From positions 1 through 64,000 of the forward strand of contig JACZXB010000007.1 in NCBI GenBank assembly GCA_022571845.1: 64,000 nt of DNA, in the 5' to 3' direction. The stretch is from Candidatus Zixiibacteriota bacterium. Its GTDB lineage: Bacteria > Zixibacteria > MSB-5A5 > GN15 > FEB-12. Positions 44,460-48,883 of the stretch are shown in pieces (positions within the stretch are counted from its first letter, which is position 1; every line of letters begins with the position of its first letter). The notes beneath the pieces were generated by a model. It was not told the origin of the DNA and searched no databases. It was given only the letters and a program-made list of their open reading frames with translations. A program made the translations under genes and the position numbers.

Positions 44460-45608
44460 ATGAAACATGTGACATTATTAGCTTTAGTAGCCTCAATTGT
44501 CCTGACATTATCGCCGCTTACTATTGCTCAAATTTGTGGTGATGTAAATAACGACGGTACATTTAACATTCAGGATATGATCACAACCATTGATTATCTT
44601 AGAGGAGGAACTCCGTCCCCATTTGATTCCAGCAATGCCGATTGCGATGGAATACCCGGCATTTCAGTCTCAGATGCCGAGAGAATGGCTGAATTTATAT
44701 TTCAAGGTGGTAGTGTCAATTGTACGCTTTCGGGTTCCTACAGCTTTTCATCGACTTCTAGCGATACAATTTATCTGCCCAGATTATTGAATGTCCCTGA
44801 CAGCGTTACCGGTGCAGGATTGCTAGTAGTTAGTTCTTTTCACAGCACTGTTGATGGATTCTATGTGCCTCTGTTGAGTAAAGTAACCGGAAGCAGCGGC
44901 CATTTTGATCTGAGTTCCACTTTCCACAATACTGGCATTAATATAGTTTTGTCATCGACGTTCGATCCCGACACGAATATTGTGTTGGGCGTTGATCTCG
45001 CTGGTTCAGGAGTCTTTACCGGCAGCCCGAAAAACGTGCTCTTACTAAATTATACCCGACAGACGACTGGGACAGCGGATATTGTACCCGAAGAATTTGA
45101 CTTTACTTCACCGCTTCGATTTGCAGTTCTCATAAACGGCGACTTGCGCGTGCCGGTTGTTAAGTATTACGATGCTTCTTCACCGGAACCATTTGTTATT
45201 TCCACCAGAAACATATTTCTCAATGCTAGCGAAGACTCGTTGTCCTCAAATTCCGTAATGGTAGATATTGATTTCCCTGTGCCGGGAGTTAGCTTTGAAC
45301 TTGACCCATCACAATCATGGATTAATCTGAGTTCAACCACCGGAACATCACCAGCAACAATTACTGTTTCTGGCGACGCAGCGGGTCTTACTCAAGGCAA
45401 TTATGCCGGGACTATCGCGGTTGAGTTTGCAGGTATTGGTACTACCGTTGATTTAATCAATGTAGAGATGGCCGTTGATTCTGTTATTGTAATTCCATTT
45501 TTTCCACCGGGTGATGCCAATTGCGATGGCTCCTATGATATTTTGGATTTGGTATATACGGTTGATTATATATTCCGGGGCGGCCCGAACGCTTTCCCGT
45601 GTGAGTAG
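44460..45608 (+). CDS. Secreted dockerin-type repeat protein 1
   Basis: A 382-residue secreted protein. A signal peptide (about 1-24) is followed by a dockerin-like segment at 25-85 (CGDVNNDGTFNIQDMITTIDY, DADCDG-like NADCDGIPGISVSDAE). A beta-rich domain follows at about 90-340 (SGSYSFSSTSSDTIYLPRLLNVP). The C-terminus has a second dockerin-like half (GDANCDGSYDILDLVYTVDY). The calcium-loop pattern DxNxDGxxxxxD is clear. The ATG is preceded by GGGAGGGC. A paralog follows at 45905. No cohesin partner is in the window. Binding partner and substrate are unknown. Confidence 0.85.
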   Translation: MKHVTLLALVASIVLTLSPLTIAQICGDVNNDGTFNIQDMITTIDYLRGGTPSPFDSSNADCDGIPGISVSDAERMAEFIFQGGSVNCTLSGSYSFSSTSSDTIYLPRLLNVPDSVTGAGLLVVSSFHSTVDGFYVPLLSKVTGSSGHFDLSSTFHNTGINIVLSSTFDPDTNIVLGVDLAGSGVFTGSPKNVLLLNYTRQTTGTADIVPEEFDFTSPLRFAVLINGDLRVPVVKYYDASSPEPFVISTRNIFLNASEDSLSSNSVMVDIDFPVPGVSFELDPSQSWINLSSTTGTSPATITVSGDAAGLTQGNYAGTIAVEFAGIGTTVDLINVEMAVDSVIVIPFFPPGDANCDGSYDILDLVYTVDYIFRGGPNAFPCE

Positions 45609-45904: not shown

Positions 45905-47056
45905 ATGAAATCTCTCAAGTTAACAGCCGTGGCGCTTTTGATGATGTTTCTACTTGTCGGAAGTTCATTTTCATCAACGCTTTGTGGAGATGTAAACGAC
46001 GATGAACTACTCAATATCATCGACCTGGTTACAATCATTGATTATACCAAAGGCCTGCCGGTTTCGCCTTTCAATGCCGCCAATGCGGACTGTGATGGTG
46101 TTACAGGTATTACTCTCTCTGATATTGTCGCATTAGCCGCCAATTTTTTTGCCATGGTTCCCCTAAATTGTTCAGTTTCCGGTAGCTACAGTTATTCGGC
46201 AGCAGGCAATGATACAATTTATATTCCCCGATTACTGAACGTGCCGGAAGATATTGATAATGTAAGCCTTATGGTAGTCGGCAGCTTTAGCCAGGATGCG
46301 GGTGGTCTCTTTCTACCATTTCTGGAGCAGGGTGCGGGAAGCAACGCTGTTTTCGAACTGACCAGTTCGATTCCTTCAAATCTTGGCGTCGGCAGTGGCA
46401 CAGAGATCGGTACCGATACAACTCTCCTTTTACAAATTGATGCTTACCAATATCCACATTTCATGAACAACAATGAAAACTTGCTGATGTTGAACTATAC
46501 CAGAGTCTCGGCGGGAGTGGGAAACATTGCGCCGGAAGCAATAGATTTGGCTACTCCTCTTGACCTGGTTCTGGAAAGAGGAAGTGACCTATTGGTACCG
46601 GTAATCGCCTACTACGATGCCACCGCCGGAGCGGGTGGTTTTGAGCTGTCTTCAGAAAGCCTGACATTCAATGCTTTTTCTGATTCACCGGCTATTGAAA
46701 CTCGTATATTGGGAATCGCTCACAATGACCTGTCTGTTGGCTTCGAGCTGGTAACTACTGAATCATGGTTAGAAGTCGACGTCAACAACGGTGTAACTCC
46801 CGCCATGATAACGGTAAACGCGGATGCAACCGGACTGGGTCCGCTGGATTATACCGGATATATTAGAATTACCTATGATGCTATTTGGCAGCCGGTTGAT
46901 TCTATTCTGGTCACAATGTCAGTACATCCTGATGGAAGTTTAGTTTTCCCTGCCGGCGACCTTAACTGTGACGGCGACTTCAACATTTTGGACTTAACAT
47001 ATATAGTGGACTTCCTCTTTAGAGGCGGCCCGACTGCTTTTCCGTGTGAAAAGTAG
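45905..47056 (+). CDS. Secreted dockerin-type repeat protein 2
   Basis: A 383-residue paralog of the preceding protein with the same order of parts. It has a signal peptide (KLTAVALLMMFLLVGSSFS), a first dockerin-like segment (CGDVNDDELLNIIDLVTIIDY, NADCDGVTGITLSD), a beta-rich domain (SGSYSYSAAGNDTIYIPRLLNVP) and a final dockerin-like half (GDLNCDGDFNILDLTYIVDF). One calcium loop of the first segment has a weaker match (DVNDDELLNI). AGGGAGGAA precedes the ATG, so it has its own translation start. A terminator follows at 47107. Partner and function are unknown. Confidence 0.85.
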   Translation: MKSLKLTAVALLMMFLLVGSSFSSTLCGDVNDDELLNIIDLVTIIDYTKGLPVSPFNAANADCDGVTGITLSDIVALAANFFAMVPLNCSVSGSYSYSAAGNDTIYIPRLLNVPEDIDNVSLMVVGSFSQDAGGLFLPFLEQGAGSNAVFELTSSIPSNLGVGSGTEIGTDTTLLLQIDAYQYPHFMNNNENLLMLNYTRVSAGVGNIAPEAIDLATPLDLVLERGSDLLVPVIAYYDATAGAGGFELSSESLTFNAFSDSPAIETRILGIAHNDLSVGFELVTTESWLEVDVNNGVTPAMITVNADATGLGPLDYTGYIRITYDAIWQPVDSILVTMSVHPDGSLVFPAGDLNCDGDFNILDLTYIVDFLFRGGPTAFPCEK

Positions 47057-47106
47057 TGCTCTTAATAAATTGAAGTAGTCAAAGATTTTCGAGTTTATGT
47101 AGTTTT

Positions 47107-47149
47107 TCAGGTCGCATCCCGACTAGAGTCGGGATGCGACCTGATGTTT
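47107..47149 (+). terminator. Strong Rho-independent terminator after the dockerin pair
   Basis: A perfect 18-base inverted repeat (TCAGGTCGCATCCCGACT and its complement) with a 2-base centre, followed by TGTTTTT on the plus strand. The minus side has no T-run, so it serves the plus-strand gene. Confidence 0.9.
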
Positions 47150-47183
47150 TTCGATGGTAAATTTTAGCAGGCTTGTAGACGGC

Positions 47184-47780
47184 TCACTTGCTCAGACCGG
47201 CTAAGGCCGTCTCAATTTTCTTGAGTTGCTTGCCTATCTTATCAACTTTTGCTTCAAGTCTCTTAAAATCACTCTGCTTTGACAGTTTCATGTCCTGCAC
47301 AAATGCAGAAACTTCTTTTTGAACTTTTGCTGCCTCTGTAGAAACTTTCTTTCTAAAATCAGCCGTAGACTTATCAGCTTTTTTCAGAAGCTCCATTATT
47401 GCTTTTTTGCGCTCAGATCTATCAAGCTCACCTTTTTTGATGAGCTCATCGATAATCTTGGTAGCTTTCTCTTTGGTCACTTGTAAAGCGCCTAAAGAGG
47501 CCAGGATAGTGTTTTTTAGTATCGACATCGGGTATTCTCCTCCGGTTAATATTATTGCCTTAAATAATTCTTGTGAACCTTTGTGGTCGCTCCAGTGGGT
47601 AGCTTCAAAGAGCATCAGCCTGCCCAATACAGGAAGGGTTATATCTTTGCCAGTTTGCGAATCAATTACTCTTAGTTCTATACCCTCTTTTACCATTTCA
47701 GAAAGGTCCGACTGCGTAATAGTCCGGCTGCTTTCTGTGTCATAAAGCCGCCGGTTTGAATATCTCTTAATTACTCTCAT
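47184..47780 (-). CDS. phaR: PhaR-type polyhydroxyalkanoate synthesis regulator
   Basis: A 198-residue DNA-binding regulator. The N-terminal PHB/PHA accumulation regulator domain is clear (VIKRYSNRRLYDTESSRTIT, GIELRVIDSQTGKDIT). The C-terminal half is a long helical region that resembles phasin-like regions (DKIGKQLKKIETALAGL). Family members repress PHA genes and themselves and respond to PHA granules. No PHA synthase or phasin is in the window. A perfect palindrome lies in its promoter (47793-47811), which suggests autoregulation. DNA-binding domain identification is firm; the linked PHA role is not shown. Confidence 0.85.
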   Translation of the reverse strand: MRVIKRYSNRRLYDTESSRTITQSDLSEMVKEGIELRVIDSQTGKDITLPVLGRLMLFEATHWSDHKGSQELFKAIILTGGEYPMSILKNTILASLGALQVTKEKATKIIDELIKKGELDRSERKKAIMELLKKADKSTADFRKKVSTEAAKVQKEVSAFVQDMKLSKQSDFKRLEAKVDKIGKQLKKIETALAGLSK

Positions 47781-47790
47781 CTCAGGTTAT

Positions 47791-47819
47791 AATATAGTGC
47801 ACCGCACTATAAATTGCAA
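47791..47819 (-). promoter_or_regulatory. Candidate phaR promoter with an embedded operator
   Basis: On the minus strand TTGCAA (47819-47814) and TATATT (47796-47791) are 17 bases apart. The perfect 8-base inverted repeat TATAGTGC-ACC-GCACTATA (47793-47811) fills the spacer and reaches into the -10. Reported PhaR sites contain TGC/GCA dyads, so autorepression is likely. The start codon lies only 11 bases from the -10. Confidence 0.65.
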
Positions 47820-47847
47820 CAAAAAAAAGCACGGCTGCTTCTCTCCC

Positions 47848-48243
47848 TTAAGTCATTGAACTCAGCACAATATTGACGATTTCCAGAAGCCGTTCGCAGG
47901 AGAAAGGCTTCTTAATGTACATGTCACCGCCGGACTGAAACGACCTGCCCCCGTCATCTTCGCGGTCTTTTCCGGTCAGGAAAATTATCGGGGTATTGGC
48001 AAAATCAGGGTCCTGCTTAAGTTCCTTGCAGACAGCGTAGCCGTCGCTGCCGGGCATCATAATATCAAGCAGGACAACATCTGGTTTGAACTCTTTAGCC
48101 TTGCTGACTGCCTTGAGAGGTGAATTTTCTACCGCAACTTTGTAACCGGCTTCGGTCAGAAAAGTCTCTACGATTTCAGTAATTTGCGGTTCATCATCAA
48201 TAATTAGAACCTTAGCAGAGCCAATTTTAATTTTGTAAGACAT
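47848..48243 (-). CDS. CheY-like response regulator (single receiver domain)
   Basis: A 131-residue receiver domain with no output domain. The acidic pair is in VLIIDDEPQ (Asp16, Asp17). The phosphoacceptor is Asp60 in PDVVLLDIMMPGSDGY. The conserved lysine lies in IFLTGKDRED and the switch threonine in that same strand. It probably acts by protein-protein contact. No histidine kinase is adjacent, so the partner is unknown. Confidence 0.92.
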   Translation of the reverse strand: MSYKIKIGSAKVLIIDDEPQITEIVETFLTEAGYKVAVENSPLKAVSKAKEFKPDVVLLDIMMPGSDGYAVCKELKQDPDFANTPIIFLTGKDREDDGGRSFQSGGDMYIKKPFSCERLLEIVNIVLSSMT

Positions 48244-48385
48244 CTATAACCCTCAATAACTGTTTACAGCCCTACCCCCCGATACTGACAGGCCTAATCT
48301 TTTTATCGGTAGATTCTGCTGAAAAGATTAGCAGCTAAAAGACCTGCAAAAAAGCCTTATTAGTCCCCCAATCAGCTCTTTTTAA

Positions 48386-48414
48386 TTGCGGCTTTTGGGG
48401 GCAGTCCATATTCT
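48386..48414 (+). promoter_or_regulatory. Candidate smpB promoter, near-leaderless
   Basis: TTGCGG (48386-48391) and TATTCT (48409-48414) are 17 bases apart. The expected transcript start falls within a few bases of the ATG at 48422, and no Shine-Dalgarno precedes that ATG, so the mRNA may be leaderless. This is weaker than the phaR and PKD promoter candidates. Confidence 0.4.
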
Positions 48415-48421
48415 AATATTT

Positions 48422-48883
48422 ATGGGTCTAAATGATAAAGTACGCTATGTGGTCAGAAACCGCAAAGCTCGCCATGATTACACAATCCAGGACACCATTG
48501 AAGCTGGTATAGAGCTTCGGGGCTGTGAGGTCAAATCCTTAAGAGAGGGGAAAGTCAACATTTCTGATGCTTATGCGGTGATAGAAAATGGTCAGCTATT
48601 TTTAAAAAAACTGCATATTTCACCTTACAAGATGGCTCAGGAAGAAATTGACCCACTCCGAACAAGGAGATTACTTTTGCATAAGAAAGAAATCAGAAAA
48701 TTTACAGCCGAAATCGAGCAGAGAGGCAAGACGCTTATTCCACTGTCTATTTACTTCAAGGGTAATATCGCAAAAATCGAACTTGCCCTGGGAGTTGGAC
48801 GTAGAAAGTATGACAAAAGGGAGGCGATCGCAAAACAGGAGTCCGATAGACGTATTCGCCGGGCAATAAGAAAAGATATTTAA
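48422..48883 (+). CDS. smpB: SmpB, SsrA (tmRNA)-binding protein
   Basis: Binds tmRNA and delivers it to stalled ribosomes. The 153-residue chain has NRKARHDYTIQDTIEAGIELRG and CEVKSLREGKVNISDAY at the N-terminus, then HISPYKMA, and a basic tail GVGRRKYDKREAIAKQESDR that folds on the ribosome. The ATG at 48422 puts NRKARHDY at the usual position; the longer frame from 48386 would add 12 residues not found in the family. It heads the smpB-amidase-murI-rdgB run. Confidence 0.95.
   Translation: MGLNDKVRYVVRNRKARHDYTIQDTIEAGIELRGCEVKSLREGKVNISDAYAVIENGQLFLKKLHISPYKMAQEEIDPLRTRRLLLHKKEIRKFTAEIEQRGKTLIPLSIYFKGNIAKIELALGVGRRKYDKREAIAKQESDRRIRRAIRKDI

Follow-up and report, generated by a model that had tools for sequence, protein, structure and literature searches.

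Results

Operator dyad and promoter within the window

The locus analysed here raises the question of which protein recognises a palindrome embedded in a promoter and which genes that protein controls. The palindrome lies in a 64-kb stretch of Zixibacteria DNA, the whole of which is referred to as the window. We have compared the site across the phylum; very probably it serves as operator for the PhaR-type protein whose gene follows directly, and through it that protein would repress its own gene.

Direct reading of the window reveals an exact 8-bp inverted repeat with a 3-nt centre, TATAGTGC-ACC-GCACTATA, at 47793-47811 (no strand assigned), containing the core TGCRNYGCA and identified as a predicted operator by conservation and by its match to the published PhaR consensus. 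On the minus strand, sequence and a promoter scan place a -35 hexamer, TTGCAA, at 47814-47819 (read 47819-47814) and a -10 hexamer, TATATT, at 47791-47796 (read 47796-47791), separated by a 17-nt spacer (47797-47813). An earlier note on this DNA had described an exact 8-base palindrome in a promoter with 17-base spacing between the hexamers, and both observations are borne out. The accompanying statement that the dyad exactly fills the gap was inaccurate: its first four plus-strand bases (47793-47796) are shared with the -10 hexamer, while 2 nt of spacer beside the -35 hexamer lie outside it.

Palindrome and promoter are each unremarkable alone in view of the chance counts for the window, in which exact 8-bp arms separated by 0-10 nt number 29, and a promoter scan covering 46900-48500 returned 5 promoter-like sites compared with 2.1 expected. 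When the loop is fixed at 3 nt, this dyad is the only exact 8-bp arm pair in the window, and the motif with up to 3 mismatches was seen once against 0.14 expected, at least one occurrence being obtained in 14 of 100 shuffles. The case for the dyad rests on conservation in relatives, not on the palindrome itself.

Conservation of the promoter-dyad across Zixibacteria

The strict pattern TTG-N8/9-GTGC-NNN-GCAC-NATAWT was searched in 132 Zixibacteria genomes alongside a reversed control. It was detected at 68 places in 66 genomes, corresponding to 67 distinct sites since one G029 site is read on both strands, and at none in the control. All 67 sites are positioned 11-127 nt upstream of a PF07879 domain on the same strand. 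PF07879 is present in 91 of the 132 genomes, and the strict pattern occurs in 66 of these 91 and in 0 of the 41 genomes lacking the domain (Fisher 8e-17, relatedness ignored; counts across genomes are not phylogenetically independent). Nearly all the 25 PhaR genomes that the strict pattern misses are accounted for by relaxed forms, 20 carrying GTGC-RNY-GCAC and four (G053, G059, G120 and G121) the one-sided GTGC-RNY-GCAA, with nothing upstream in one; in G103 (C2:9218) neither a dyad in the 330 nt upstream of the PhaR gene nor a receiver-type end was found. At the family level, the PF07879 domain is observed in 15 and the strict pattern in 11 of the 19 families sampled. The -35 element of the strict sites in relatives is mostly TTGAC-.

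Two loci have an unusual arrangement. In G029 (C1:2799804-2799837) the pattern is present on both strands over one dyad, resembling face-to-face promoters which share one operator. G079 contains two phaR-type copies (C186 and C238), each with an operator; one copy resides in an open frame of 67 aa close to the end of its contig and is a possible assembly duplicate.

Positions left free in the search are also conserved. R-N-Y forms the centre of the dyad at 66 of 67 strict sites and at 24 of 24 further sites (20 full and 4 one-sided), and the T of the left arm is T in 67 of 67. The pair flanking the dyad is mostly T-T (43 sites); where the right flank is C, five of six sites have G on the left (Fisher 0.002, uncorrected for relatedness), a flank change which, judged from these bases, preserves symmetry at the expense of the -10 box. 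Published PhaR consensus sequences are TGCRNYGCASMA for Bradyrhizobium (PMC6201568), YTKNTGCRNYGCANMAR for R. eutropha (PMC12849132) and, for S. meliloti (PMC12542648), WNWD2NYGCRNYGCRNH2WNW, one listed S. meliloti site including TTGTGCGGCGCACAA. The Zixibacteria sites have the core TGCRNYGCA in common with these sequences.

The regulator is a putative repressor-phasin fusion

The gene downstream of this promoter (47184-47780, minus strand) encodes a 198-aa protein and begins with an ATG situated 10 nt beyond the -10 box. Its N-terminus is a PHB_acc_N DNA-binding domain (residues 3-57; 47610-47774, minus strand) matching PF07879 at 73.5 bits against a cut-off of 25 (E=1.4e-20). A phasin-like helical domain follows (residues 93-189; 47214-47504, minus strand), matching PF05597 weakly, at 33.2 bits against 28.8, and the phasin-related NCBIfam model NF047773 is exceeded (45 bits against 35). 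The protein scores below TIGR01837 (30.3 against 94.7) and below TIGR01848, the full-length PhaR equivalog (65.1 against 109.45), and is therefore termed PhaR-type rather than a PhaR equivalog. The previous description of the first minus-strand gene as a PhaR-type regulator thus agrees with the PF07879 match, though the score lies under the TIGR01848 cut-off, while the statement that the window has no PHA genes overlooked the phasin-like C-terminal half of this same reading frame.

The fusion is not peculiar to the window. Three named relatives, 93-94% identical, derive from Candidatus Zixiibacteriota MAGs, and in an alignment of 46 relatives, out of 92 domains found, PF07879 was matched in 46 of 46 and PF05597 in 44 of 46 at E<=0.001. 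An AlphaFold model has a mean pLDDT of 67.5, about 90 over residues 1-50 and mostly low over the remainder, so that the modelled helices of the phasin-like domain are low-confidence. Foldseek comparison of the model with the PDB gave no match at E<=0.001, and by sequence the PDB yielded a single hit at E<=1, to an ATP synthase b' subunit (0.61); these structural results are without bearing on the verdict.

The distance from the -10 box to the nearest in-frame ATG at 55 strict sites was 0-10 nt in 25, 11-20 nt in 20 and more than 20 nt in nine, with no such ATG in one. In some relatives the transcript may have no leader or almost none, which is not claimed as a general trait. The plus strand of the window also encodes two adjoining secreted-looking proteins (44460-45608 and 45905-47056) with dockerin-like repeats, as judged by eye, near both ends.

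Search for additional target sites

The earlier note placed the regulon elsewhere in the genome. A related alternative is that the PhaR-type protein does repress itself but that its main role is to control a broader set of degenerate sites, as happens in rhizobia, with the self-site merely the strongest of them; the available text on S. meliloti describes PhaR working through degenerate sites at many promoters. In 54 genomes of family f1, TDGTGCRNYGCACHA was detected at 66 sites compared with 7 in the control. Forty-five of the 66 are the phaR sites of 44 of 44 PhaR genomes, one genome having two, and 17 of the 21 sites located elsewhere lie inside open frames of at least 363 aa, a distribution which argues against a wider regulon. 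A site recurring in genus g20 was rejected as a target and read as coding conservation, as it occupies the same position of a 538-aa frame in five genomes. Four sites remain outside long-frame interiors (G011:C16, G026:C171, G000:C11 and G004:C277), the first three having no long frame, and blastn comparison of three locus pairs among the four detected nothing in common, again arguing against a shared regulon.

Some observations favour additional targets. The G004 dyad (C277:1774-1788) is situated no more than 69 nt into a 596-aa frame, with a TATAAT and an ATG following at a short distance, and could be a second target in G004 alone. The looser TNGTGCNNNGCACNA gave 111 sites in 60 genomes against 51 in the control, an excess of 60 which is larger than the 41 genomes with a fused gene, leaving about 20 sites unexplained by phaR. 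G042 alone has 7 such sites against 0 in the control, and the phaR site is all that the profile described below returns in G042 at E<=10.

A symmetric profile was constructed from 35 of the 49 distinct phaR-site 19-mers, in both directions, and used to score 150 first-look candidates in each of 20 genomes. The phaR site was the best match in 16 of 16 PhaR genomes, as expected for a profile built from such sites. Among the candidates scored, five further, lower-scoring places were observed in four of these 16 genomes, few for a wider regulon, and no match in the four genomes without PhaR. One of the five, at about C11:7817-7831 in the window's own genome (G000), scores 13.7 bits compared with 18.1; it has an RNY centre and is located in the gap that precedes a 257-aa ORF, and, as a second RNY dyad in this genome, it is consistent with a wider regulon. 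An ORF nearby resembles, by eye, an AAA/RepA-type ATPase. In a phasin search of this genome, which covered the family PF05597, the fusion gene itself is the sole match.

A shared second target was therefore not found among strict sites in the 54 f1 genomes or by profile in the 20 genomes, and the regulator's own gene is, by sequence, the only conserved target found. Degenerate sites would slip past strict patterns, and degenerate targets elsewhere are possible. We consider it rather unlikely that a wider regulon is the main function, and the placing of the regulon elsewhere is not supported by the distribution of sites.

Loss of the PhaR domain is accompanied by loss of the dyad

A receiver-only response regulator is encoded just upstream of the phaR-type gene (47848-48243, minus strand). 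The dyad might accordingly be the operator of another regulator, with its link to PhaR reflecting merely gene order. In a survey of 81 loci, of which 5 lacked the search motif and 76 were readable, 64 of the 76 had a receiver-type end (KKPF motif) in the preceding 520 nt, making the response-regulator gene the commonest upstream neighbour, as this alternative would have it. Domain search of the 47848-48243 product, on the other hand, detected a receiver domain only, and six genomes that carry the strict dyad (G066, G105, G106, G109, G119 and G122) showed no receiver end in the 520 nt preceding the gene. The dyad therefore goes with PhaR and not with the response regulator.

The same conclusion is suggested by genomes in which the fusion is incomplete. 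A protein match was obtained in 48 of 60 relatives, and seven of the 60 (G014, G017, G019, G041, G043, G047 and G049) match by the phasin-like half only. PF07879 was not found in these seven genomes, and TGCRNYGCA is absent from up to 400 nt upstream of all seven lone frames, the G049 contig starting about 90 nt ahead of its frame. All seven lone genes nevertheless adjoin the same kind of response-regulator gene upstream. A tree of these seven together with 46 of the 92 fused proteins, which is based on 116 columns and leaves several forks unresolved, places the lone forms at four or more positions: G043 with G037 (99/90), G041 and G049 with G059 (100/81), G047 with G054 and G056 (95/90), and the three f1 lone forms within an f1 clade (99/91). 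The simplest reading is that PhaR domain and operator were lost jointly on more than one occasion, which links the dyad with the DNA-binding domain, and that the phasin-like half was worth retaining by itself. The dyad is thus gone where the PhaR domain is gone, though neighbour and phasin-like half persist, and its core equals that of PhaR sites in the published text available; control by another regulator is very unlikely. A functional link between the response regulator and the phaR-type or lone phasin-like genes is possible.

An exact inverted repeat just past the response-regulator gene could also be an RNA hairpin or terminator of that gene, but the T run precedes rather than follows the dyad, the dyad is missing from the output of a terminator scan, and -35 and -10 elements at fixed spacing are conserved along with it, as is the RNY centre, so that we regard this explanation as highly improbable. 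A chance palindrome over an ordinary promoter, for which it can be said that a single 8-bp arm pair around a 3-nt loop is close to the chance level for 64 kb and that looser loops are frequent, has a negligible probability, being strongly opposed by conservation at the promoter in the 11 families with the strict pattern and by the failure to find the dyad where the PhaR domain is absent.

PHA synthase is not detected in the phylum sample

The name of the regulator suggests polyhydroxyalkanoate metabolism, as the earlier note assumed, a framing which the searches did not bear out. PhaC_N was detected in 0 of 132 phylum genomes, a Caulobacter control scoring over the cut-off, and TIGR01836 in 0 of 60 relatives, for which the Caulobacter control matched but under that cut-off. 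The WS/DGAT family PF03007 was likewise detected in 0 of 132 genomes, a result that shows nothing because no control genome matched either. On the evidence of these genomes, the surface that the phasin-like half may bind is not classical PHA from a recognisable PhaC.

Discussion

Proposed mechanism of autoregulation

The proposal that the palindrome is an autoregulatory switch at which a bound regulator blocks RNA polymerase is well supported, at the level of sequence, by the location of 67 of 67 sites and by the co-loss of domain and operator. A dimer, suggested by the symmetry of the dyad, would bind TGC-RNY-GCA over both spacer and -10 box; bound protein would sterically shut out RNA polymerase and repress its own gene, autorepression being inferred from position and family. 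The helical phasin-like domain would bind a hydrophobic surface in the cell, and a free surface would draw the protein off the DNA, derepressing the gene, with more coat protein then made until the surface was covered. Relief upon surface binding is the model for C. necator in the available text of PMC9049629, and its transfer here by analogy with the known PhaR-phasin circuit is tentative, somewhat short of an even chance. The protein is probably a repressor-phasin fusion which controls mainly itself and is relieved by its C-terminal half on a hydrophobic surface other than classical PHA. More speculatively, and with still less assurance, a phylum-wide collapse of the PhaR/phasin circuit into one polypeptide might be envisaged, the coat protein acting as its own sole repressor and sensing a non-classical-PHA hydrophobic surface: a one-gene homeostat for an inclusion or membrane surface.

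Autoregulation of phaR is reported in several species but varies, the literature available describing repression in R. sphaeroides and a weak positive effect in S. meliloti, while the B. diazoefficiens protein is listed as 'not autoregulated' in a review table. Six plasmid-borne PhaR genes were read from the 21 plasmid records found, and TGCRNYGCA was present within 320 nt upstream, taken from assumed starts, in none of the six; the Legionella gene closely follows other genes and its promoter may lie further upstream, and the start of the Shinella gene, where there is no annotated gene, was guessed. In view of the varied autoregulation elsewhere, a strong, near-universal self-operator may be a trait of the Zixibacteria version.

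These observations provide a case, phylum-wide and open to experiment, in which a PhaR-type regulator and its operator occur with no PHA synthase detected, and suggest that PhaR and phasin-like domains can serve surfaces besides PHA granules. The co-loss of domain and operator constitutes a natural experiment, and the fused protein is testable with one promoter and one protein. To a specialist, autorepression itself will be familiar; what is unexpected is that PHA synthase is missing and that the design is fused and apparently has a single target.

Comparison with known PhaR and phasin systems

A literature search, which covered titles and abstract openings of mostly non-subscription papers, returned no PhaR in Zixibacteria and no PhaR-phasin fusion. 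With the PHA-responsive repressor PhaR of Cupriavidus necator, Paracoccus and rhizobia, as far as the available text describes them, the Zixibacteria protein has in common PF07879, the TGCRNYGCA operator, siting over promoter elements and, in several species, autoregulation. It differs in being fused to a phasin-like domain and in scoring below the TIGR01848 cut-off, and the sample in which it occurs yielded no PHA synthase and a single conserved target, its own gene. PhaR of C. necator, unlike the Zixibacteria fusion, has phasin genes as separate targets. The C-terminal half matches the PF05597 phasins and is predicted to be helical, but the match is weak, is carried on a repressor and occurs where no PHA synthase was found.

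The closest parallel in arrangement is phaRP of Haloferax mediterranei, in which, like the fusion, repressor and phasin are under one self-repressed promoter according to the available text of PMC9049629. There, in contrast, phaRP is a two-gene operon and not a fused protein, PhaR is AbrB-like in its C-terminus (PMC9049629), and the organism is described as making PHBV. Thus a PhaR-type operator with autorepression is already known, and what is new is its occurrence without a detectable PHA synthase, in an apparently single-target layout, upstream of a repressor-phasin fusion.
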